In this document: piece by piece, positions 1 to 21,500 of the stretch | Layout of the letters: each line of letters begins with the position of its first letter | How positions within the stretch are numbered: position 1 is the stretch's first letter | Assembly: GCF_002355835.1 (NCBI RefSeq) | Contig: NZ_AP017459.1 | Location: forward strand, 1 to 64,000 | Direction of reading: 5' to 3' | DNA: 64,000 nt | Source: Candidatus Endomicrobiellum trichonymphae | Lineage (GTDB): Bacteria > Elusimicrobiota > Endomicrobiia > Endomicrobiales > Endomicrobiaceae | Made by a program: the position numbers and the translations under genes | Notes under the pieces: model-generated | The model's input: the letters and a program-made list of their open reading frames with translations, nothing else | Databases searched by the model: none | What the model was told of the DNA's origin: nothing

Positions 1-618
1 ATGAGAATTTCCGTACCTGATTTATGGCAAAAGGTCATAAACAATATTAAATTGTCCGTAACACCTGAAACTTATAATCTGTGGATTTCACCTATAAAAC
101 CTCTAACCCTTGAAAACAATATATTTACTTTAGAAGTGCCAAATATCTATTTTTCACAGTGGATAACAAACAACAAAAAAAATATTGAGCAAATTTTATC
201 CGATTTATGTGGACAACAGATAGCTTTAGAGTTAAAACCACATCAAAATATATCCGACATAATAAAAAAAGTTGAAGATATGCCTGATCATGAAGATGTT
301 CGAGTGCTGATAATGCAGAAAGATCAGATAAATCCTAAATACGTTTTTTCCGGCTTTGTTATCGGCGCTTCAAACAGATTTGCGCACGGATGTTCCGAAG
401 CGGTTGCAAAAAATCCCGGCAAACAGTTTAATCCTTTATTTCTTTACAGCGGAGTAGGACTAGGTAAAACGCATTTGTTAAACGCAATAGGCAATCACAT
501 AAAACAGTCAACGCCAAAACTAAAAGCTCTTTACGTCACCTGTGAGAAGTTCGTCACGGAATTTATAGAGTTAATACGATTTGATAAAATATCGTTTTTC
601 AAAAGCAAATACAGAAGT
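1..618 (+). pseudogene. dnaA: dnaA, 5' fragment (domains I-II and the Walker A half of domain III)
   Basis: This is the N-terminal part of the chromosomal replication initiator. Domain I covers about residues 1-80 (LWQKVINNIKLSV...). The AAA+ domain begins near residue 112 (KYVFSGFVIGASNRFA), with Walker A GVGLGKTH near residue 151. DnaA similarity stops after FFKSKYRS, at about nt 618. A normal protein would continue into the Walker B motif LLIDDIQF, but that motif is found 6.3 kb downstream at 6941. The reading frame runs on to nt 723 with unrelated, insertion-derived residues. A product from this piece would have Walker A and no Walker B or DNA-binding domain, so it cannot act as an initiator. 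The ATG at nt 1 is taken as the start because domain I begins directly after it. Confidence 0.95.
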
Positions 619-626
619 TTAGTAGG

Positions 627-660
627 AACGAAGTATCGACCCTGTCTAATGTGCTTAATT
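627..660 (+). repeat. 34-bp unit-end repeat, copy 1
   Basis: The sequence beginning AACGAAGTATCGACCCTG is identical over 34 bp to 2937-2970. It lies within about 10 bp of the left dnaA junction. A shorter version is at 23518. It marks the start of each tandem unit and may be the recombination end of the element. Confidence 0.85.
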
Positions 661-770
661 GGAGTTTTCCGACTTTACTTGTGCTTGGAGAATGTCTGTA
701 TTTCTCTGGACATCGAGTATTAATTTGAGGCAAAAGACTTGATTAATTATTAAATTATAAATTATGAAAA

Positions 771-798
771 AGCCTGCAGAAATGCAGGCTCTTTTTTT
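771..798 (+). terminator. Rho-independent terminator upstream of truncated rep
   Basis: The stem AGCCTGCA / TGCAGGCT closes on a GAAA tetraloop and is followed directly by CTTTTTTT. It is duplicated at 3063-3090. It would insulate rep transcription from upstream transcription. Confidence 0.85.
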
Positions 799-808
799 GC
801 GTTGTGTT

Positions 809-831
809 ATGTGTTTTCGGTTTGGTTTTTT
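809..831 (+). repeat. Single residual iteron of unit 1
   Basis: One ATGTGTTTTCGGTTTGG unit followed by a T-run matches the last iteron of the array at 3101-3321. Unit 1 therefore has one iteron where unit 2 has about ten, which suggests contraction by recombination between repeats. Confidence 0.75.
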
Positions 832-918
832 TGGCAAAAAGTGGCTATAAATAAGGATTTGGCTTACTCTCTATCTCTAACTACTCTATTGCTACTAAGT
901 CTGGCAGACAATTTTTGA

Positions 919-1950
919 GATTTTAAAAAGATAAAAAGCAAAGAATTTAACGGCAAGCCTTATTATAAAAATTACAAAGAGATTGTATTAGTCGCAAAAG
1001 AAGCAAAGCAAATAAAAATAAAAGAGAACAATATTAAGAAAGTCGAGTTAACTTCAATGCCGACTAAATACGGCATAGAGAATGTAGCAACTTTCAATCT
1101 ATTCAATAGCAAGATGTTTACTTATCCAAACGACAAAAGAAAAAAAGCGAAAGTAAGTATGAAAATAAGATTTAACGATGGCACCAGCAAAGAGTATGAA
1201 TTGTACAGAGGACAGATTGCACGTCATAACGATACGGGAACAGGGCAATTAACAACAACGCACGCAAAGATATTCCTTGCCATCACACATATTTGGCAAG
1301 AGCAGAAAAGCAGATTCGCTAACGACAGCTATTGTGCCGTTGTTGATACTTCATTAACAGAAATCGCAAAGAAGTTAGGTTATAAAAAAGTAAGCGGAGC
1401 CGACCGAAGCAGAATACTGCAAAAGATAAAAGAGATGGTATATTTTTATATGATGGTTTCAGACGGGGTACGAGATTGCGGATTTTCACTTTTAAACAAT
1501 ATTATCGTATGGGATAAAGAAGACCGCAAAGAGAACAATTACAAATCAACGATAAGAATTTCTATAAGTCCATTCGTTTCAAAACAATTATACGACAGAA
1601 AAATTATTATGAGAAAACCTCAATGCTATAAGATTAAAAATCCTACGGCTATTAAATTCCTGTTATGTTATGACAAAAGAATAGTTGCGGGAAACAGCTT
1701 AAGAATGAATATATCCGAAGTAGCAAATGATTTGGAAATAAATATATCTACTAATAAATCAATGATAATTGAAGTACTAAACAATGCATTAAAAGAATTA
1801 AACGGCTACGAACTTAACGATAGTTATCGCTTGTATGTAGAATTAGTTAAAGAGGAAAAGGAATGGATTGTCGTTGCCGACCGTATCTTAAAAGAGAAAC
1901 AACAATCATTAGAAGTGAACTGCAGAACTGACATAGAATGCGAAGCATAA
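919..1950 (+). pseudogene. Truncated plasmid replication initiator (unit 1), lacks DnaA-like domain
   Basis: This is a paralogue of the rep gene at 3476-4732. It aligns with it from KFNGKPYF (here EFNGKPYY, about nt 937) to near the C-terminus. The open frame starts after a TGA at 916-918 and has no ATG until 1057 (MPTKYGIENVATF). That ATG has no clear ribosome-binding site. The first ~95 residues of the full-length paralogue (DnaA-like domain I and part of the linker) are missing. The deletion joins the A-rich rep leader to the A-rich linker. The winged-helix core (LTTTHAKIFLAITHIWQEQ) and the C-terminal part are open. It is probably a non-functional copy. If translated from 1057, the 297-aa product would have the DNA-binding core without the helicase-contact domain. 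Confidence 0.7.
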
Positions 1951-1971
1951 GAGGAGCGAAGCTCCGTGCTT
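1943..1971 (+). terminator. Two-tier stem-loop after truncated rep
   Basis: An outer stem AAGCA/TGCTT encloses an inner stem GGAGC-GAA-GCTCC, followed by a pyrimidine-rich tract. The same structure follows the second rep at 4744-4772. It could be a terminator or a structured plasmid element such as a single-strand origin. Confidence 0.5.
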
Positions 1972-2355
1972 GTCTTTCCTATCTTAAAATACTGCCCTCA
2001 AAAAGCTCAAATCTAAAGGTAAATATAGTCATATCAAACATTGTCTAACATTCTGTCTTTGAAAAAAAAGCTATGATAAAATATTAAGTGGAATATAAAA
2101 AAGAAACTGACTATTATGAAAACGATATGCGTCATATTGCTGACGCTCTAAAACTTGAAAAATATTTGTTCAAATAGTATCCGTATCAGCAAGGATATAG
2201 GCATTATAACTCTACTTGATGTATATAATTGCCCACTGTAAATAGATTTGAGGGTCAAAAATGACTGACTTCCACCCACGTTTAGACCCTTCAAAAATAT
2301 ATTTAGTCCAGCCAAATAGTGATAATTCTCTTAATCTGTAAGCAGAGATATTCTT
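1972..2355. other. Intergenic part of unit 1 with decayed remnants
   Basis: No convincing gene is present. The first ~70 bp are collinear with 4773-4850 of unit 2. A short frame near 2090 ends in RHIADALKLEKYLFK, which resembles the tail of an XRE-type regulator but is too short to support. ACTTGATGTATATAAT near 2215 recurs near 5108 in unit 2, indicating a deletion between the shared blocks. Confidence 0.5.
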
Positions 2356-2499
2356 ATGAAAAAAACTAATAATAAATATAATAAAGATAAATATAAACCC
2401 ATAGAAAATGCATTTCCTATTAACAATCCGTTTAGAAGTTCTAGAACTGTTCAAAAAGCTTTAAAAATAATTAATAAAAAGGTTGTTAAAAAAGATTAA
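2356..2499 (+). CDS. Small basic protein, 47 aa (unit 1)
   Basis: The product starts MKKTNNKYNKDKYKP and ends in KKVVKKD. It is very rich in Lys and Asn, with an IENAFPINNPFR segment. A second copy at 6382-6510 has nearly the same sequence but lacks five residues near the N-terminus. Conservation of the frame in both diverged units, and of the order small ORF then lipoprotein, supports a real gene. The stop is 8 bp before the lipoprotein start, and the lipoprotein's ribosome-binding site (TGAGGAT) abuts the stop. No family is recognised. Its charge would suit nucleic-acid binding or a membrane-associated regulator, but there is no motif to decide. Confidence 0.55.
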   Translation: MKKTNNKYNKDKYKPIENAFPINNPFRSSRTVQKALKIINKKVVKKD

Positions 2500-2507
2500 A
2501 TGAGGAT

Positions 2508-2726
2508 ATGATTGTAATTAAATTTAAAAAAATATTTGCTGTGATTTTAATGTTGTCTGTGTTCTTGTCTGGCTGTCAGAGGAAGGTTATAACAGGCGTT
2601 TCTAAAAATAAAAATGATGTTTCAACTTTAACGAATACTCCTGCTCCATGGGATAATGATACATGGTGGGATGGTCATAAGTTTACCGAAGCTACTAAGA
2701 ACTTGTTACGGCCTTGGGATGATTAG
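2508..2726 (+). CDS. Small lipoprotein, 72 aa (unit 1)
   Basis: A short basic start (MIVIKFKK) is followed by a hydrophobic core (IFAVILMLSVF) and the lipobox LSGC, so cleavage would leave Cys23 lipidated. The mature part is about 50 residues, rich in Asn, Thr and Trp, with no recognised domain. The first ~45 residues are almost identical to the lipoprotein at 6519. After NTPAP the two diverge completely, so the 3' ends have been replaced or shifted in at least one copy. A good Shine-Dalgarno (TGAGGAT) precedes the ATG. It resembles small plasmid or phage lipoproteins in size, such as lysis or exclusion proteins, but no specific function can be assigned. Confidence 0.6.
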   Translation: MIVIKFKKIFAVILMLSVFLSGCQRKVITGVSKNKNDVSTLTNTPAPWDNDTWWDGHKFTEATKNLLRPWDD

Positions 2727-2936
2727 TTGTCTGCGCCTACTCCATCGCTTACTCCTACTTCACCAGAGCCTGCGTCTCAAGGCAAACTCAAAAAAATGGC
2801 GTTGTTATGCCCGCCATTAACACAATTTTCTTTTATGTCGCCCGCACTTGTTTCCCCAATCATATCAATTTCAAGAGCAGCGCTCTTAGCTGTGCCAACT
2901 GTCTGCGGAATGTGGTTCGCACTATTCTCTTATAGA
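2727..2936 (+). other. Non-coding or decayed 3' segment of unit 1
   Basis: This stretch follows the lipoprotein stop and is collinear with 6712-6930 of unit 2 (shared CTCAAAAAAATGGCGTTG and GCGCTCTTA.CTGTGCCAA). An open frame exists here but its counterpart in unit 2 is in a different frame, so protein coding is not supported. Near its end, TTCGCAC...TTATAGAAAC (2916-2939) has the arm arrangement of a weak dif-like site. Confidence 0.45.
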
Positions 2937-2970
2937 AACGAAGTATCGACCCTGTCTAATGTGCTTAATT
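2937..2970 (+). repeat. 34-bp unit-end repeat, copy 2
   Basis: Identical over 34 bp to 627-660, this marks the junction between the two tandem units. Similarity to unit 1 continues through the downstream terminator. Confidence 0.85.
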
Positions 2971-3062
2971 TGAGTTTGCTAGCTCTCTGCATTGGAAGTG
3001 TACGCTTATTTAGAATTCTACGTTAAAAACTCGATTAATTATTAAATTATAAATTATGAAAA

Positions 3063-3090
3063 AGCCTGCAGAAATGCAGGCTCTTTTTTT
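3063..3090 (+). terminator. Rho-independent terminator upstream of iterons and rep
   Basis: The stem AGCCTGCA / TGCAGGCT with a GAAA loop and CTTTTTTT tail is identical to 771-798. It sits about 10 bp before the iteron array. Confidence 0.85.
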
Positions 3091-3100
3091 GTGTTGTGTT

Positions 3101-3321
3101 ATGTGTTAGTAGTTTGTTATAATATGTGTTCCTAGTTTGGTTTTTATGCGTTGGTAGTTTGGTTTTTATGCGTTGGTAGTTTGGTTTTTATGTGTTAGTA
3201 GTTTGGTTTTTATGTGTTGGTAGTTTGGTTTTTATGTGTTAGTAGTTTGGTTTTTATGTGTTAGTAGTTTGGTTTTTATGTGTTTTCGGTTTGGTTTTTA
3301 TGTGTTTTCGGTTTGGTTTTT
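3101..3321 (+). repeat. Iteron array: about ten 22-bp direct repeats (candidate plasmid origin)
   Basis: Direct repeats of ATGTGTTAGTAGTTTGGTTT plus TT start at 3101, 3124, 3146, 3168, 3190, 3212, 3234, 3256, 3278 and 3300. The first two are degenerate (the first spacing is 23 bp); the rest are exactly 22 bp apart. Variation is confined to TTAGTAGT, TTGGTAGT and TTTTCGGT. A repeat of two helical turns lying 154 bp upstream of a Rep gene is the hallmark of iteron-controlled plasmid origins, where the repeats are Rep-binding sites. The region that follows (GGCTATAAATAAGG...) is AT-rich and could be the melting region. There are no spacers, so it is not a CRISPR. Confidence 0.9.
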
Positions 3322-3475
3322 ATGGCAAAAAGTGGCTATAAATAAGGATTTGGCTTACTCTCTATCTCTATTACTACTATTAAAGACTATGTCTGCCTAA
3401 AGTCTGGCAGACAATTTCCTTTTGAAATTTTAAAAGAAAAAAAAGACAAAAAACCAAAGAAATAAAGGATAAAAA

Positions 3476-4732
3476 ATGTGGAATGAAATCATTACAGAAT
3501 TAAAAGAAAAAATACCGACTGAATGGCTTGAACCAATAAAAGAGGAAAGCTTTAAAGACGATATGTTAACGCTTGCTGTTCCTGATACATATTATGCTCA
3601 AAAGTATGAAACTGATTATAAACCATTAATTCAAAATATACTAAAAGCAAAAACAGGCAAAGCCGTCGGCTTGCAATTTCAAATTGTTGCTTCTAAATTA
3701 CTGGCAGAGCCTGTTATAAAAGACGAAAAGCCAAAAACGCAATTAATGAAAAAAACGAAGTTTAACGGCAAGCCCTATTTTAAAAATTCTGCGGAGCTTG
3801 CATTGGTTGCAAGAGACGCAATTCAAGTAAAAAATATAGATACTCAAAATGCCGAGTTAACTTCAATGCCGAGTAAATACGGCATAAAAGATGTCGTATC
3901 TTTTTGCCTCTTTAATAGCAAAATGTTTACTTATCCAAATGATAAAAGAAAAAAAGTTAAAGTTAGTATGGATGTAAGGTTTAGTAATGGCACTCTTAAA
4001 ACGTTTGATTTATATCGAGGTCAAATTACGTTTAATGATGTTGGTCGTGGACAGTTGACAACAACGCACGCAAAGATATTCCTTGCCATTATTCATATTT
4101 GGCAAGAGCAGGGTTGTAAGTTTGCGGATAATAAGGGCTTTTATGCAGTTGTTGATATTTCAATGCGGGAGCTTGCTAAACGGTTAGGCTATCAAAAATT
4201 AAGCGGAGCCGACGTAAAGCGATTGACTGTATTGACTAACGACCTTGTCGATTTCCCTATGATACTTTCTGATGGATATACGGCTTATACTTTTACATTC
4301 TTGTTTGACGTTGTTGCCCGCACTTTTAAAAAGAGCAGAAGCAATAGGACTATGTTGAGATTAACTATTAATCCTTTTATTTCAAAACAATTTTACGATA
4401 GAAAGGTTTTCTTAAGAAATCCTCAATGCTATAAAATCAAAAATCCTACTGCTATTAAATTTCTGTTATGTTATGACAAAAGAATAGTTAAAGGAAATGG
4501 TTTAAAACTAAATATATCTGAAGTCGCAAATGATTTGGAAATTCTAACAGAGCAAAAATCAATAGTTGCCGAACATTTGGGAAATGCGTTTCAGGAGTTA
4601 AACGGATACGAACTTAACGATAGGTATCGCTTGTATGTAGAATTAGTTAAAGAAGAAAGGGAATGGATTGTCGTTGCTGAACGTATCTTAAAAGAAAAAA
4701 CAACAATCATTAAAAGTGAACTGCAGAACTGA
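3476..4732 (+). CDS. Iteron-type replication initiator with DnaA domain I-like N-terminus
   Basis: The 418-aa protein begins at an ATG preceded by AAAGGATAAAA. Residues 1-75 (MWNEIITELKEKI, TEWLEPIK, DDMLTLAVPDTYY, LIQNILKAKTG) align with the N-terminus of this genome's own DnaA (LWQKVINNIK, LWISPIK, NIFTLEVPNIYF, NIEQILSDLCG). In DnaA this domain contacts the replicative helicase. A linker to about residue 130 leads to the conserved core (SMPSKYGIKDVVSF, FNSKMFTYPNDKRKK). Winged-helix-like segments follow (LTTTHAKIFLAIIHIWQEQ; YKIKNPTAIKFLLCYDKR ... LNISEVANDLEI), as in plasmid Rep proteins. It lies just downstream of the iteron array, its likely target. Unlike the upstream copy it has no visible lesion. 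The Rep assignment comes from layout and fold-like pattern; the DnaA-like N-terminus is directly visible. Confidence 0.85.
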   Translation: MWNEIITELKEKIPTEWLEPIKEESFKDDMLTLAVPDTYYAQKYETDYKPLIQNILKAKTGKAVGLQFQIVASKLLAEPVIKDEKPKTQLMKKTKFNGKPYFKNSAELALVARDAIQVKNIDTQNAELTSMPSKYGIKDVVSFCLFNSKMFTYPNDKRKKVKVSMDVRFSNGTLKTFDLYRGQITFNDVGRGQLTTTHAKIFLAIIHIWQEQGCKFADNKGFYAVVDISMRELAKRLGYQKLSGADVKRLTVLTNDLVDFPMILSDGYTAYTFTFLFDVVARTFKKSRSNRTMLRLTINPFISKQFYDRKVFLRNPQCYKIKNPTAIKFLLCYDKRIVKGNGLKLNISEVANDLEILTEQKSIVAEHLGNAFQELNGYELNDRYRLYVELVKEEREWIVVAERILKEKTTIIKSELQN

Positions 4733-4743
4733 CATAGAATGCG

Positions 4744-4772
4744 AAGCATAAGAGGAGCGAAGCTCCGTGCTT
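4744..4772 (+). terminator. Two-tier stem-loop after full-length rep
   Basis: It has the same AAGCA..GGAGC-GAA-GCTCC..TGCTT structure as 1943-1971 and lies 12 bp after the rep stop. It is a probable terminator or structured plasmid element. Confidence 0.5.
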
Positions 4773-5537
4773 GTCTTCCCTCTCTTACTTAAAAGCCTGC
4801 CTTTAAAAAACTCAAATCTAAAAGTAAAGATAGTCATATCAAACGTTGTCTAAAATCTTGTCTTTAAAATCTATTCTGTTTACTTTTAAAACGTAAAAAA
4901 ACTATTAAAAATCGTAAAAACTGTGTTAAAGGCGCGCTGGCGCCTCAAATAACGCAAAAATTACATTAAGAACGTCATAAAATGTCAAAATATGTCAGTA
5001 TTGTGTCATAATAAGGAATTATCACATAGTCTAAAGCCTTAAAATTGTATTAGCACGCTGTCCACATTGTTTTTGATTATTGTGGAAAAATGTGAAAAAA
5101 AACCTTACTTGATGTATATAATGCCCATTGCGTACCAATTTCAGGAAAAAAATGCCAGTTGGATATACTTGATATGCAATTGGCTGACTTGTTTCAAAAA
5201 GACACCGATTGTACCTCAAAATAACAGCGATAGTTTATGAAAGCGTAAAAAGCTAAGACGTTATGATAATGCTTAGTCGCTGTTTGTAAATATGGCGAAA
5301 AAATGTATTATATGTTTATAGGCTCGTACAACATTTGGATAATGCTTGTGATATATAAATAGTCAAAAGCCGTCTTAAAGTAGACGGCAAAAAAACTAAA
5401 AAAAGTGAGCGAAGCGAACACCTATTATACTTGATATACATATCAAAAAATAGACCCGAATAAAACTTATCTGCTTTGTTATACAAACTTACCTTAAAAT
5501 CCACGAAAAAAAATATCTGGACAGTTTAAAGAAAAAA
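4773..5537. other. Intergenic part of unit 2 with DnaA-box-like sites and hairpins
   Basis: No convincing gene is present. Visible features are a hairpin GGCGC-GCTG-GCGCC near 4933, several GTCATAA/ATGTCA motifs at 4974-5012, and two divergent DnaA-box-like 9-mers, CTGTCCACA (5058-5066) and TGTGGAAAA (5081-5089, the reverse of TTTTCCACA). The block ACTTGATGTATATAAT recurs from unit 1. It could hold accessory origin elements. Confidence 0.4.
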
Positions 5538-6333
5538 ATGAAATTGAAAAAAACTTTATGCGTATATTTAACGCTTGTTCTGTTTTTGACAGGCTGTGGA
5601 AATCTTAAAAGCCATATAAGAGGTAATCAGAATACTGACGCTTTCTGCCGACCAGCAGACAGGCAATATTATAAAAAGCGATAATAGTGGAATAATTGAA
5701 AAAGAGGAAATAAAAAAATTTGACTATAAAGTAATTGGATTAGTTGGATTAGACGATGATGGCGATTTATTTCAAGATGAAGATGAAAAGGAGAAAACTT
5801 CCAGCAAAGAACCAGAGCTGATGTGGCAGGATAAGGCGAAAAAGTATGCTGGTGATGCTGGACACTTTTTGTATGAACATAAAGGGAAGATAGCTTTTGC
5901 TGTGGTAGTAGTAGCTGGTGTTTACTGGTTCGGGATAAGACCTATAAAAACGGGCTACCCGTACAACCAGAAGTCTTACAACTACGACAACAACAAGCTT
6001 TACAACAATACCAACAGCAACAGCACGAAATAGAAGCACTATTTGTACCAGACGACTTGTTAGACACGGATAGGACCGAGCTGGATGTGATGTTATCTGA
6101 CCTATAAAGACAACTAACCCAACTATACCAACTACAAGAACTACTACTACTACAACGACAATTACAACAAAGACTGCTTTTAGCACAAGAACGGCAACAA
6201 CTATTACAACTACAAATAAGTCTTTCTACAACACCAAACAATGCCATTTCTGCAAATAGAATACTTAGGGTACCAACATCGATTAACACAACAATTATTG
6301 CAACAAGAACAACAACTAGCAGAACAACTATGA
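5538..6333 (+). pseudogene. Decayed lipoprotein gene with transmembrane segment and Gln-rich tail
   Basis: The start (MKLKKTLCVYLTLVLFLTGC) is a lipoprotein signal with lipobox LTGC. After ~30 residues the frame shifts to LTLSADQQTGNIIKSDNSG, an acidic stretch (GLDDDGDLFQDEDEKEK), then MWQDKAKKYAGDAGHFLYEH and a transmembrane segment (IAFAVVVVAGVYWFGI). A second shift leads into a Gln/Leu-rich coiled region (VLQLRQQQALQQYQQQQ, RQLTQLYQLQELLLLQRQ) broken by a stop after DVMLSDL. A further shift gives QHRLTQQLLQQEQQLAEQL and the end. At least three frame changes and one in-frame stop make it a pseudogene. It is present only in unit 2. The original product would have been a lipid-anchored or membrane-spanning protein with a coiled tail. 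No family is recognised. Confidence 0.6.
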
Positions 6334-6381
6334 CTACAAGCAGTATAATATTTTAAATAAATTAAAATGAGAGATATTCTT

Positions 6382-6510
6382 ATGAAAAAAACTAAAGATA
6401 AATATAAACCCATAGGAAATGCATTTCCTATTAACAATCCGTTTAGAGGTTCTAGAACTGTCCAAAAGGTTTTAAAAATAATTAATAAAAAAGTTGTTAA
6501 AAAAGATTAA
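6382..6510 (+). CDS. Small basic protein, 42 aa (unit 2)
   Basis: This is the paralogue of 2356-2499, starting MKKTKDKYKPIGNAFPINNP. It may instead start at the in-frame ATG at 6367 (MRDIL). It differs from the unit 1 copy mainly by a five-residue deletion that preserves the frame, and by a few substitutions. Its stop is 8 bp before the lipoprotein start at 6519, the same arrangement as in unit 1. The function is unknown. Confidence 0.55.
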   Translation: MKKTKDKYKPIGNAFPINNPFRGSRTVQKVLKIINKKVVKKD

Positions 6511-6518
6511 ATGAGGAT

Positions 6519-6785
6519 ATGACTGTAGTGAAATTAAAAAAAATATTTGCTGTGATTTTAATGTTGTCTGTGTTCTTGTCTGGCTGTCATAGGCAGGTTA
6601 TAACAGGTATTTCTAAAAATAAAAATGATGTTTCAACTTCAACGAATACTCCTGCTCCAGAGGACTACGCCTACTACTCGGTCTTGGCTTTGGTAATTTC
6701 CATCGTCTACGCCTGCTCCTACTTCACCAGAAGACTACGTCTCAAGACAAACTCAAAAAAATGGCGTTGTTATGCCCGCCATTAA
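6519..6785 (+). CDS. Small lipoprotein with second hydrophobic segment, 88 aa (unit 2)
   Basis: The signal and lipobox (FAVILMLSVFLSGC) are almost identical to the unit 1 copy. After NTPAP the sequence becomes EDYAYYSVLALVISIVYACSYF, a hydrophobic segment, then a basic tail (RRLRLKTNSKKW). The frame downstream of NTPAP differs from unit 1, so one or both 3' ends are probably frameshifted. Alternatively the variable tail could be selected diversity. A small membrane lipoprotein of unknown function is all that can be said. Confidence 0.5.
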   Translation: MTVVKLKKIFAVILMLSVFLSGCHRQVITGISKNKNDVSTSTNTPAPEDYAYYSVLALVISIVYACSYFTRRLRLKTNSKKWRCYARH

Positions 6786-6925
6786 CGCAATTAATACTGG
6801 TTGAAGGTTTGACATTGCTAATTCTGTAATCCGCGAATTAGTTCTGTATCTCTTTTCTTTTATGCCGACCGCACTTAGTTCACCAATCATATTAACTTCA
6901 AGGTTAGCGCTCTTAACTGTGCCAA

Positions 6926-7656
6926 TTGTCGGCGCACTGTCTATTGATAGACGACATACAGTTTCTAGTAGGCAAGGAAGGCTCGCAGGAAGAATTTTTC
7001 CACATGTTTAACAGTCTAAAAAAGCAGATAGTCATTTCGTCTGACAGACCGCCTAAAGATCTCAAAGACGTTGAAGAAAGACTCATTTCAAGATTTGAAT
7101 GGGGTATTATAGCTGATATACAGCCACCGGATTTAGAGACAAGAATCGCAATTTTACGCAAAAAATCCGAAGAGGAAAAAATATATATCCCTGATGATGT
7201 TATTTTACATATAGCAACGCAGATCAAGTCAAACATAAGACAACTTGAGGGATCGCTTCTGAGAATAACAGCTTTTTTCAGCATTTACAGGAACACCTTT
7301 AACTGTGGATTCCGCACAAAAAATGCTCAAAATCATTAGAATAAATAACTCCGAACATATACAATAGAAAATATACAAAAAGCTATTTCAGACGATTTCA
7401 ACATAGAAATAAAAGATATGAAATCAAAACGCAGGACAGACGCCGTTGCATTTCCAAGGCAAATCGCAATGTATCTTGCGAGAACGCTAACCGATGAATT
7501 TTCAACCAATGCTATTAGTTAGGCGAAGCGTTCGGCGGAAGAGATTACTCAACCGTCATGCACGCCTGCAATAAGATAAAAGAAAAAATGGACTCCGATC
7601 CATATTTTAACGCTAAAATTAATAAAATTATCAAAAAAATACGAAGCGAGCAATAA
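6926..7656 (+). pseudogene. dnaA: dnaA, 3' fragment (Walker B half of domain III and domain IV), frameshifted
   Basis: DnaA similarity resumes with [20 protein letters not shown] (Walker B) and runs through the sensor region ([14 protein letters not shown]), [19 protein letters not shown] and [15 protein letters not shown]. About three residues are missing in FNSL-KKQIV. An extra T near 7275 shifts the frame; the correct frame continues as [19 protein letters not shown] and meets a stop. It reopens as [19 protein letters not shown], hits another stop after STNAIS, and ends with the domain IV signature GEAFGGRDYSTVMHACNKI. Multiple lesions beyond the insertion show that dnaA is dead and decaying, not simply split into two working parts. 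Confidence 0.93.
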
Positions 7657-7877
7657 AAAGAACAACTCTGCGCATAAAATATAAAAATTTGATATAATAT
7701 AAAAACAGGCTAATAATTCTAATAACTTCATTGCTTTATCAGCATAGTTATCTTCATTAAATTTTTATAAATTCTATTTGATAATTATACTTTTTTAGCA
7801 TTCAAAAAAAACTTATCAACAATATACAGGACATTATAGTAACTAATGTGCTTTTATAGAAATTTGGGAGAAAGTGA
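7657..7877. other. dnaA-dnaN intergenic region, eroded candidate oriC
   Basis: This is a very AT-rich 220-bp spacer in the usual position of oriC. Only one DnaA-box-like 9-mer is visible, TTATCAACA at 7813-7821 (one mismatch to TTATCCACA). There is no cluster of boxes and no DnaA-trio-like series that I can support. It also contains the dnaN promoter region and its Shine-Dalgarno (GGGAG at 7866). Confidence 0.4.
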
Positions 7878-8999
7878 ATGAAAGTAATTTGTGAAAAAGA
7901 AGAATTAATGAGAGGAATTCAGATGGTATCTCCAGTAACACCATCTAAAAATACACTTCCTGCTTTGTCAAACATTCTATTCGAAGCCGAAAGAGATAAA
8001 ATAAAACTTTCATCCACAGATCTTGAAATAGCTGTACAGTGTTATATTAAGGGAGAAATAACAGAAGATGGTGGAATTACGATACCCTCTAAGAGATTTG
8101 CAAACATTATAAAAGAGCTTTCTACTGACGACGAAATAGAAATTAAAGCCGATGAAACAAATCAGATAAATATTAAATCCGGAAAATCAAAATTTAATCT
8201 TATGGGAATTTCAAAAACAGAATACCCTGTAATACCGGAACCTCCTAAGAACAACAATTTTACTATTAAAAGAGGAATATTTGCCTCAATGCTCAAAAAG
8301 ATTGTTTTTGCAGCGTCAAGAGATTCACAAAGATACGTTTTGAACGGAATTTATTTTATACTTGGAGACAGCAAACTTACAATGGTTGCCACAGACGGCA
8401 GAAGACTTGCTTATGCTAAGACTAATATAACACAAGCAGAGGTAAAAGGAAAAGCTATCGTTCCGACAAAAGCAGTAAATGATATATTAAGACTTCTTTA
8501 TTCAGATATAAACTCTGAAGACATGAGAATCGGCATCTCGGACAATCGAATCTCTGCAGAAATCGATGATATAACTCTACTTTCAACGCTTATAGAAGGA
8601 GTGTTTCCAAACTATGAGCAAGTTATACCTAAAAAATCAGATTTAAAGATAAAACTTAATGTGAAAAACACACTTACTGCGGTAAAACAAATGGCTCTTT
8701 TGACTGATAACCACCTTTCGTCAGATAGATCGTCAGCAGTGAAGTTTTATTTTAGCCAGGATCTTTTGAAAATCTCAGCTTCATCAGCTGGAATCGGTTC
8801 AGGCGAAACCGACCTTGAAATTGAATATAAAAATGATCCGGCAGAGATTAATTTTAACCCAGATTTTATAAAAGAAATTTTCCAAAGCATTGATGAATAT
8901 TCAGCGATATTTGAATTTACTAATTCTTTAAATCCTGCGGTAATATATCCTGAAACAGATGAAAACTATCTTTGTGTCGTGATGCCGATGAGAGTATAG
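7878..8999 (+). CDS. dnaN: DNA polymerase III beta subunit (sliding clamp)
   Basis: This 373-aa protein matches the usual clamp length and has three repeated clamp domains. It begins MKVICEKEELMRGIQMVSPV, with recognisable landmarks FATDGRRLAYAK-like MVATDGRRLAYAKTN near residue 170 and a C-terminal YLCVVMPMRV, the canonical (V)MPMR end. It forms the dimeric ring that tethers DNA polymerases to DNA. The start is supported by GGGAG 8 bp upstream. It lies directly after the dead dnaA, as in most bacteria, and is followed 2 bp later by the DciA-like gene, so the dnaN-dciA-gyrB order suggests a replication operon. Confidence 0.98.
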   Translation: MKVICEKEELMRGIQMVSPVTPSKNTLPALSNILFEAERDKIKLSSTDLEIAVQCYIKGEITEDGGITIPSKRFANIIKELSTDDEIEIKADETNQINIKSGKSKFNLMGISKTEYPVIPEPPKNNNFTIKRGIFASMLKKIVFAASRDSQRYVLNGIYFILGDSKLTMVATDGRRLAYAKTNITQAEVKGKAIVPTKAVNDILRLLYSDINSEDMRIGISDNRISAEIDDITLLSTLIEGVFPNYEQVIPKKSDLKIKLNVKNTLTAVKQMALLTDNHLSSDRSSAVKFYFSQDLLKISASSAGIGSGETDLEIEYKNDPAEINFNPDFIKEIFQSIDEYSAIFEFTNSLNPAVIYPETDENYLCVVMPMRV

Positions 9000-18510: not shown

Positions 18511-21500
18511 CTAATTAATATTTTGGCGGGCAACGCTCATTAAAAGCTTAATTCTATTGATTTGATTAACTTCGCTTACACCTGGATCATAGTCAACAGA
18601 GATGATATTTATGTCATTGTAGCGTCGTTTGAGTTCTTTCATAACGCCTTTGCCTGTAATATGGTTTGGCAGACATCCGAAAGGCTGTACGCAGACAATA
18701 TTTTTTACACCGTCTTCTATAAGTTCTAACATTTCAGCGGTCAGCAGCCAGCCTTCGCCAGTTTGATTACATACCGAAATAATATCGGAAGCTTTGTGTG
18801 CTAAATCTTTTGTTGTCTGATATGAATGAAAATGCTTGCTTTTTTTAAGGGTTTTTCTTATACCAGAACGAAGTCTTTCTATATAACTGCTTGCAATAAG
18901 TGACATAACTTTGTTTTTAAAGCTTCCGGCGAGATATTTATGTTTGTATATATCATCAAGCATACAATAATTTATAAAATCTGTCATATCGGGAACTACT
19001 ATTTCCGCTTCTTCTTTTTCTAAAACTGAAACCAAATTATTGTTTGCGTAAGGATGAAATTTAACTAAAATTTCCCCAACGATGCCGACGCGCGGTTTTT
19101 TTACCTTTTGGGCGACTATGCCGTCAAAATCTTTGACAATTTTTTTTACGGTGTTTTTGAAATCAAAGTACAATGTTTTTCCTATTCTGTCGGAAAGCCT
19201 CATAAGCCATGTTTCAACTAAAGCATCCGTCTGTCCCGAATGAACTTCATAAGGGCGCATGCGGTTTGACAGTCTCATAAGCAAATCGCCGTAGAGAAGT
19301 ATAAGCAGAGTATCTTTTAACATTGAAAAAGAAACACCCAGAGATTTATTGAGTGAAGAATCCGTAGTGCTTAAAGAAATTACCGGTACATTTTTAAAGC
19401 CTGCTTTCTCTGCGGCTTTTCTTAAAAAACTTGCATAATTTGTAGCTCTGCATCCGCCGCCTGTCTGGGAAATTATCATTGCGGTCTTATTTATATCGTA
19501 TCTGCCGGATTTTAAAGCGTTTATAAGCTGTCCAACGACAACTATCGTTGGGTAACACGCATCGTTATTTACGTATCTTAATCCTTCTTCAATATCGGCT
19601 TTATTAACTTCAGGCAAGACTTCTAATTTTATTCCATAATTGCGCATAACAGAACCTGCGAGGCGGAAATGTACGGGGGACATCTGAGGGCATAAAATGG
19701 TGTGAGAATCTTTCATATCTTTTGTAAATTCTGAAAACTTCGAGACCTTCGTCCCTTCAAAAATAGTATCTTTAAATTTTAATCCTTTTCTTTCTTTTAT
19801 TGCGGCAAGTAGCGAACGTATGCGTATCTTCACCGCGCCCAAATTAGAACCTTCATCTATTTTTAGGACTGTATAAATTTTGCCTGATTTTGAAAGAATC
19901 TCTTCCGTTTGTTCCATTGTAATCGCATCTAGTCCGCAGCCGAAAGAATTGAGTTGTATAAGCTCTAGACTGTCTATTTTTGTAGCGAGATTAGCGGCGC
20001 GGTAGAGGCGAGAATGATACATCCACTGGTCGACAAAACTAATTTTCGGAAGCGGTCCCGACAGATTTGCCACAGAGTCTTCGCTTAAAACTATTACTTT
20101 GTAAGAGGCAATTAAATCTGCGATGCCGTGATTTATCGCCGGGTCAATATGATACGGCCTTCCCGCAAGAATAACTGCCGGTTTTTTGGTTTCTTTAATT
20201 TCCCTTATAAGCACCGTCCCTCGTTTTCTTATATCTTTTTTAAACAGGTTAAGAGCAGCTCTCGCTCTAAGTATTGCAAAGACTAAATTCTTTTTTGTTA
20301 TATTGAAATCTTTGAGTTCTTCAGCAAGTCTGTGTATAAGTCTTTTAATATTGTCAAAAGGCAGAAAAGGCTGAAGAAATTTTATTCCTTTTTCTTCTAA
20401 AGCGCTCATATTTAAACGTATAACTTCAGGATAGCTTCCCACTATAGGACAATTATAATGGTTGGCAACATCTTTAAATTCTTCCACTTCATACGGTATG
20501 CACGGATAAAAAATTATTTTAATGCCTTTTTCAACAAGATTTTCTATATGCCCGTGAACCATTTTTGCAGGAAAACATACGGTTTGTGACGAAATGGTGT
20601 CAAGTCCGCTGTTAAATAAAACGTTCGATGATTGATCCGACAAAACCACTCTAAAGTCGAGTTTTGTAAAAAAGGCAAACCAGAAAGGATAATTTTCGTA
20701 CATATTTAAAACACGCGGTATGCCGATTTCGCCTCGCGGCGCTTTTTCCAAAGGGAGCGGTTTGTAATAACTAAAAAGGCGTTTGTATTTGTAATCAAAC
20801 ATATTAAAAGCGAAACTCTGCTCTTTTTTATTCTGCAAAACATTTTCGCATCTGTTGCCAGAGATAAAGGTTTTGCCGTTGGGGAAAACAGTTATATTAA
20901 GCAGACATTTATTTTCGCAGCCTTTACAACGCGTAGTTCTCATTTTACATACAAATCCTGCGAGTTTTTCCTTAGATATAAGCGAAGTTGAATATTTTTT
21001 ATTCTGCATGGCAATGATTGCAGAGCCGAAAGCTCCCATAAGTCCTGCAATGTTGGGACGAATAACTTCTGTTTTTAAAAGAATTTCAGTAGCTCGCAGG
21101 ATACCGTTATTAAAAAACGTGCCACCCTGAACAACGATATGCCCTCCGAGTTCTTCGGGATTGTTTATTTTTATGACTTTATACAAAGCGTTTTTTATAA
21201 TGGAGTAATCTAGACCTGCGGAAATATTGCCCGCGCTTGTGCCCTCTTTCTGCACCTGCTTTATTTTAGAGTTCATAAAAACCGTGCATCTAGAGCCTAA
21301 ATCCGCAGGTTTTTTTGCAAACAGCGCCAGCTGTGCAAAATCCTGCAGCTCATAATTCATCGACTTTGCGCAACTCTGCACGAAAGATCCGCATCCCGAA
21401 GAGCAGGCTTCGTTTAAAGCTATTTTATCTATAAGTCCATTTTTAACGTATATACATTTCATATCCTGTCCGCCGATATCCAGGATAAAAGACACTTTCG

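Follow-up and report, generated by a model that had tools for sequence, protein, structure and literature searches.

We analyzed the first 64,000 bases of the chromosome of Candidatus Endomicrobiellum trichonymphae, a bacterium that lives inside termite-gut protists, and find that its gene for the replication initiator DnaA is split by a 6.3-kb insert. The insert consists of two related plasmid units in tandem, one of which carries an array of 22-bp repeats (iterons) beside the gene for a plasmid initiator, Rep. The stretch, referred to below as the window, equals bases 1-64000 of contig C1 (1,114,532 bp), the start of the chromosome, in an assembly (G000) of four contigs that is 1,130,840 bp long and 99.58% complete; the small contigs C2, C3 and C4 measure 5,518, 5,752 and 5,038 bp. 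All features of the window described here are on the + strand. In our judgment the best single account of the locus is natural integrative suppression, in which an integrated plasmid replicon supports a chromosome without functional DnaA, and we give it even odds. The fuller claim that the initiator has been exchanged in nature, with one insertion both destroying dnaA and putting a plasmid origin and a Rep bearing DnaA domain I at the address of oriC, is one that we lean very slightly against. That the plasmid now drives copying of the chromosome is unproven, but it has to be considered seriously.

Integrative suppression is favored because the abrupt loss of a constrained dnaA coincides with the arrival, at the origin, of a replicon that is probably independent of DnaA. 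Also counted in its favor is that three cargo genes of the insert are broken while the body of Rep and the iterons are whole. The mechanism that we propose is as follows. A tandem pair of iteron plasmids of the pTGRD type would have inserted illegitimately into dnaA, and one unit would have kept a complete replicon of ten 22-bp iterons, an A+T-rich spacer and Rep, after which the chromosome would most likely have initiated at 3099-3475. Rep would bind the iterons, then open the A+T-rich spacer and recruit the replicative helicase via its own DnaA domain I, so that the lost DnaA would not be needed. Replichore layout and strand skew would have stayed as they were, since the insert lies at the site of the old oriC. 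We infer the activity of Rep, its binding to the iterons, the recruitment of the helicase and the use of the site as a chromosomal origin.

A plasmid replicon inside dnaA

The 5' remnant of dnaA (1-622) encodes domains I-II and the AAA+ core through the Walker A motif, and its reading frame runs on through 33 codons of the insert to a stop at 723. In profile searches this part matches DnaA_N and positions 2-97 of 162 of Bac_DnaA; the 3' remnant (6936-7656), which extends from Walker B to domain IV, matches Bac_DnaA from position 97 or 99 to 161. Likeness to relatives breaks off at 622 and resumes at 6936, so that the left piece holds Walker A and the right piece Walker B. An earlier note on this DNA, made from the letters alone, had described dnaA as cut between these two motifs by an element of about 6.3 kb; this is confirmed, with the insert at 623-6935. 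In the closest relative, genome G022 (GyrB 94% identical), dnaA is uninterrupted, with an open frame of 456 codons. Compared with it, the 5' part is 92% identical and has two indels, both in-frame, and the 3' part has five (-9, +1, -3, -1 and +5), amounting to two in-frame deletions and three frameshifts (+1, -1 and +5), as expected from the note's description of a frameshifted 3' half. A second dnaA elsewhere was named there as grounds for refutation; none was found in the genome with PF00308 or with the full-length DnaA of a relative as query, and the hypothesis survives this check. With its sole dnaA both split and frameshifted, the chromosome has an inactive DnaA, as integrative suppression presupposes. 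That dnaA is a pseudogene in Ca. E. trichonymphae is already in print (PMC10579323).

The ends of the insert carry an uncertainty of a base or two. At the junctions there is no target-site duplication, and the sequence of G022 at the insertion site is TTTGGACTGT, which sets the insert end at 6935, the loss from dnaA at 0-2 bp and the loss from the plasmid circle at about 23 bp (with the free plasmid pTGRD3 and contig C4 as reference). From these sequences the insertion looks like illegitimate joining rather than transposition.

The earlier note had taken the insert for a single plasmid replicon, and here it has to be corrected, since two related units lie in tandem. The second unit holds the iteron array (3099-3324, 10.2 copies of 22 bp), an A+T-rich spacer that leads from the iterons to Rep (3325-3475, with 84% A+T in 3421-3475) and is a candidate unwinding region, and Rep copy 2 (3476-4732, 418 aa), in which residues about 1-70 correspond to a predicted DnaA domain I and the last ~11 residues are altered by a +1 frameshift. 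Ten tandem 22-mers are judged far beyond chance. An integrated replicon with initiator and origin, as read from the sequence, is therefore present in C1. The note's full iteron array and intact-looking initiator stand as far as the repeats and the body of Rep are concerned, but the C-terminal tail is frameshifted; likewise the iterons that it placed at 3101-3475 are real up to 3324, and the rest is the spacer before Rep.

The first unit retains a single leftover iteron (807-828) and Rep copy 1 (931-1950), which is open, about 60-62% identical to copy 2 and devoid of the N-terminal ~90 residues, so that DnaA domain I is gone; this truncated Rep, open over ~1 kb, could inhibit the origin. The lipoprotein-like cargo gene of this unit (2508-3026) has an in-frame stop that divides it into open reading frames (ORFs) at 2508-2726 and 2727-3026. 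In the second unit, a plasmid cargo gene (5538-5928) that resembles a 232-aa ORF of C2 has a frameshift near 5643, and a lipoprotein-like cargo gene (6519-6820) changes frame after 6662 and is cut short before the right junction. Comparable cargo ORFs are open on C2, C4 and the free plasmid pTGRD2, in contrast to the three broken ones of the insert. Elsewhere in the chromosome, the other matches to the insert are pieces of less than 100 bp (40 of 112 candidates were scored, and unrelated plasmids would escape such a comparison), and a Rep fragment with four stops lies at 1,070,089.

The Rep protein, its iterons and the free plasmids

Several comparisons bear on the N-terminus of Rep copy 2. 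TIGR00362 matches its residues 3-95 (E 1.5e-6), profile-profile comparison (hhalign) of the Rep N-terminus with Endomicrobium DnaA gives E 2.8e-10, and DnaA chains in the PDB match the N-terminus at E 4.3e-5 and 6.4e-5. PF11638 is detected in five of nine members of the Rep family, and copy 2 itself falls below detection at E 1. A structure model of the whole Rep has a mean pLDDT of 41.5 (two rows) and was used for residues 1-70, the domain I part being the best modelled; with this low-confidence model the top three Foldseek hits are N-terminal domains of DnaA (E 0.0017-0.018). Judged from sequence and model, Rep residues ~1-70 are a DnaA domain I, which in other bacteria makes contact with the replicative helicase or with partners of that helicase. 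Over its N-terminal 105 residues Rep copy 2 is near-identical to the Reps of pTGRD2 and pTGRD1 (dS 0.03 and 0.06), while the remainder has diverged far (dS 0.67 and 0.91), which indicates that the domain I end (window 3476-3790) moved as a module.

The rest of Rep is harder to place. Copy 2 matches no curated plasmid-initiator family in Pfam, PHROGs or NCBIfam, and membership of the Rep_3 type was not found. RepE54 and another iteron Rep match it in Foldseek at E 0.13-0.44 on the low-confidence model, and PF10134 appears at E 0.08 in one of the nine family members; these weak matches fit an iteron initiator and are no proof of one. No relative of Rep was found among viral contigs, and genome contigs gave one partial relative (BNVT01000005.1).

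By Rep and backbone homology the insert belongs to the family of pTGRD1-3 of 'Candidatus Endomicrobium trichonymphae' (NC_020420-NC_020422), the only three plasmid records that match it, and tandem iterons of ~20 bp adjoining rep are a feature that it shares with iteron-type theta plasmids. The Reps of pTGRD1-3 are 68-76% identical to copy 2 and carry the DnaA domain I module, and in pTGRD1 and pTGRD2 22-bp iterons lie just upstream of rep. They differ from the insert in being free circles, and the arrays of pTGRD1 and pTGRD2 are shorter (4.6 and 4.8 copies) and have another iteron consensus. Contig C4 is 95-97% like circular pTGRD3 over long stretches and has a family Rep, 69% identical to copy 2, with 3.8 iterons, whose consensus is likewise unlike that of the insert. 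C2 and C3 have no Rep match, and no 22-bp iteron array was found on them. A long array was also considered as a mark of integration and rejected: in genome G004 the array near Rep lies inside a protein-coding repeat, and in G073 a 10.2-copy array sits on a contig with conjugation genes.

DnaA boxes are common, though not universal, in the origins of iteron plasmids. In the insert and in four Rep-bearing free plasmids, no TTWTNCACA box was found in the 600 bp that precede Rep, nor was one found in the preceding 900 bp at four Rep loci of relatives. The insert has no perfect TTATNCACA box, and looser matches are at 5081 and 5091. Since C4 has Rep and iterons in a genome where the split dnaA is the only one found, this type of replicon would work without DnaA if C4 is alive. 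The domain I on Rep, the lack of a DnaA box upstream and the presence of C4 in the same genome together make the proposed mechanism feasible.

The related plasmids in the same assembly also raise the prospect of a chimera, in which the junction of dnaA with a free plasmid arose during assembly or whole-genome amplification (we take it that this organism was amplified from few cells). We consider this very improbable. The insert matches none of six closely compared plasmids over its full length, as the identity of 68-76% between Reps illustrates, dnaA independently carries three frameshifts, and PMC10579323 refers to two works, numbers 20 and 68 in its list, in stating that dnaA is absent or a pseudogene in the symbiont.

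The case for and against plasmid initiation of the chromosome

The age of the dnaA loss was estimated from substitutions polarised by genomes G004, G038 and G040, with five differences left unpolarised. On the G000 branch the counts of nonsynonymous and synonymous changes are 5/13 in the 5' part and 8/16 in the 3' part, and on the branch of G022, whose dnaA is still open, they are 7/14 and 6/12. The similarity of these ratios indicates that dnaA was normally constrained along most of the branch and that its inactivation is recent. The loss looks abrupt from these counts, and constraint until recently makes it less likely that dnaA had long been dispensable. The 5' half has no frameshift in 621 nt (P 0.07-0.11), and no selection is claimed from this. 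The lack of any sign of relaxed selection before inactivation bears directly on an alternative that we treat as a strong rival, at clearly less than even weight: that chromosome copying, as in other reduced endosymbionts, had already become independent of DnaA, through multi-copy genomes, host control or scattered restart, and that the insertion was neutral, its replicon silent or incidental. Also difficult for a neutral insertion is that the sole large plasmid insert found in the chromosome, among the candidates scored, hits dnaA, which is 0.12% of its length, and does so with a complete replicon.

Frameshifts provide a further comparison, namely none in the 1218 nt of the Rep body versus three in 713 nt of dnaA (P 0.006-0.03, a figure that ignores selection at the plasmid stage). 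The ratio of nonsynonymous to synonymous divergence (dN/dS) in Rep was set aside as evidence, since the copy 2 branch (about 0.11/0.22-0.25) and the pTGRD2 branch (0.11-0.12/0.42-0.45), both outside the N-terminal module, mostly record plasmid-stage history.

A number of findings weigh against initiation from the plasmid, and strand skew supplies the first of them. Of the sampled 12-kb stretches, all 7 between 96 and 492 kb have positive GC skew and all 6 between 672 and 1,004 kb have negative skew; values are weak at 544, 608 and (in a 20-kb stretch) 1,056 kb. At four-fold sites it switches between dnaA and dnaN (G:C 99:143 upstream and 183:151 downstream; Fisher p 0.0013), and G022, which lacks the insert, switches at the same place (106:152 vs 133:118; p 0.0078). 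Because G022 has an open dnaA frame, we take the switch to be inherited, marking the ancestral origin that the insert adjoins, and skew cannot tell the plasmid origin and the old oriC apart. The earlier note had looked to skew for a test of plasmid initiation; the switch does map to dnaA/dnaN and so does not refute the hypothesis, but being identical in G022 it offers no positive evidence, and we dropped it as proof. What the switch does argue against is an origin that long ago left dnaA/dnaN. The plain cumulative G-C minimum is at 1,107,930, about 6.6 kb before dnaA, within a flat stretch, and between 32 and 64 kb of the window plain skew is negative or close to zero, although four-fold sites in that part are G-rich. 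Near this minimum, a decayed intergenic stretch contains a perfect 57-bp tandem duplication (L060:12261-12374).

The switch point coincides with the A+T-rich interval between dnaA and the intact dnaN (7878-8999). This interval (7657-7877) is likely the ancestral oriC and was aligned with G022 and 13 of 14 other relatives (G038, where the interval was not located, was left out). It has no clear excess of decay, with 21 changes versus 16 in G022 over 301 columns, a difference that is not telling as a sign of disuse. An old oriC that is still used, with another initiator or through a DnaA-independent start near dnaN and with the neighboring insert idle, would agree with the conservation of the interval relative to G022 and with the skew switch, and for Synechococcus PCC 7002 replication from one unique site in the absence of DnaA has been reported (PMC7198777). 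We nevertheless rate it as improbable. The 19.5 kb upstream contain no perfect TTATNCACA box, the window has a single one (at 20331; chance expectation 2.8), and searches covering DnaA and pTGRD-type Rep turned up no other candidate initiator. Such a box lies within 200 bp upstream of dnaA in 24 of 30 relatives with dnaA located; eroded boxes were not used as a sign of a dead oriC, since G022 also lacks one.

Turning to the insert itself, Rep copy 2 has its +1 frameshift, confined to the last codons of a tail that also varies among the plasmids (pTGRD1 and pTGRD2 differ there from pTGRD3 and C4). Rep copy 1, which is truncated and presumably has no use, is equally free of frameshifts (0 in 1023 nt), as a neutral insertion would allow, and after so recent an inactivation of dnaA Rep should in any case still be intact for a while. 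The cargo genes may have broken earlier, at the plasmid stage. A 15-base word common to the C4 array and two of the ten insert iterons (3276 and 3298) makes cross-talk or incompatibility with C4 possible. PriA is present, so restart-type initiation is possible as well; loss of RNase HI as a route to constitutive stable replication was rejected, as the enzyme is present.

Related genomes contribute the remaining points. PF00308 is present in 69 of 76 genomes of the family and in 37 of the 41 of the genus, where it is in one piece in 35, split in G000 and partial in G035. It was not found in G023, G024, G026 and G033, which are 60-78% complete. In G023 and G026, dnaN (at C2:302125 and C2:25856, respectively) and gyrB are full-length, so their dnaA is probably really gone. 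G035 has an open DnaA of 448 aa (L112:5038-6384) that lacks the usual Walker A residues as well as a block after Walker B, from DDIQ to ADIQ, and by its sequence it is hardly a normal initiator. None of these five genomes has a Rep match, and the losses in G023, G026 and G035 imply that the genus has other routes to life without DnaA. Moreover, the chromosome of G004, whose dnaA is intact, has an intact Rep (L188:9921-11324) flanked by Obg/aminotransferase and HisS genes, which means that an integrated Rep can remain intact without a chromosomal role.

These observations support a neutral insertion, as does the report that dnaA has been lost in several endosymbionts and that GC skew in an earlier Ca. 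E. trichonymphae genome was called atypical (PMC10579323, in the part covered). On the other side, in a GyrB tree G000 pairs with the dnaA-positive G022 (100/100), apart from the genomes with missing or degenerate dnaA, and its loss of DnaA is therefore separate from theirs; G033 has no gyrB, and several of the dnaA-less or degenerate rows are long branches that are placed less surely. No iteron array was found in ~350 bp upstream of the G004 Rep, and between the two chromosomal Reps iterons thus stand only beside that of G000, the genome that lost dnaA. The note's hypothesis of plasmid-driven initiation, in sum, is feasible, but the neutral explanation remains alongside it. Two other observations were made in these relatives. 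In G022, short remnants of a plasmid origin (L182:1500-1600 and L186) lie about 13 kb upstream of dnaA, beside genes that we take to be for purine synthesis, and G056 encodes, besides a dnaA of normal size, a further DnaA-type ATPase domain (C5:3207-3710; E 4.8e-64) that is part of an open frame of 709 codons.

Comparison with known systems

Integrative suppression has laboratory precedents in E. coli (PMC4287441) and in Synechococcus elongatus delta-dnaA (PMC7198777), and in the excerpts of these papers it is so far a laboratory phenomenon. No statement of a takeover by a plasmid origin was met in the parts of the literature searched (including PMC8809381, PMC10579323, PMC4287441 and PMC7198777), a set outside which lie two primary genome papers that possibly describe the insertion. 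If true, the present case would be a natural one that shows how a lineage crosses from DnaA to another initiator, and it would provide a concrete mechanism for the loss of dnaA in one endosymbiont. Because Rep is fused to DnaA domain I, the hypothesis could be put to the test in a laboratory host.

Natural single-chromosome strains of Vibrio cholerae, in which dnaA is intact, offer one point of comparison. As in our proposal, a natural chromosome there combines a plasmid-type with an oriC-type origin; the difference is that the second origin came from the second chromosome (PMC6284228, PMC5603330). Endosymbionts without dnaA share with G000 a symbiont genome that lacks an intact DnaA, and differ in that the excerpts of PMC10579323 and PMC7198777 mention no integrated replicon at the dnaA locus. 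In Synechococcus elongatus, loss of dnaA is likewise accompanied by an integrated episomal plasmid, but the deletion was engineered and a shift of origin is reported (PMC7198777). In the suppression of dnaA or oriC defects of E. coli by plasmids or phages, a plasmid replicon also resides in a chromosome without functional DnaA (PMC4287441). The case described here, in which use of the plasmid origin is proposed, differs in being natural and in that the insert itself splits dnaA, at the old origin.

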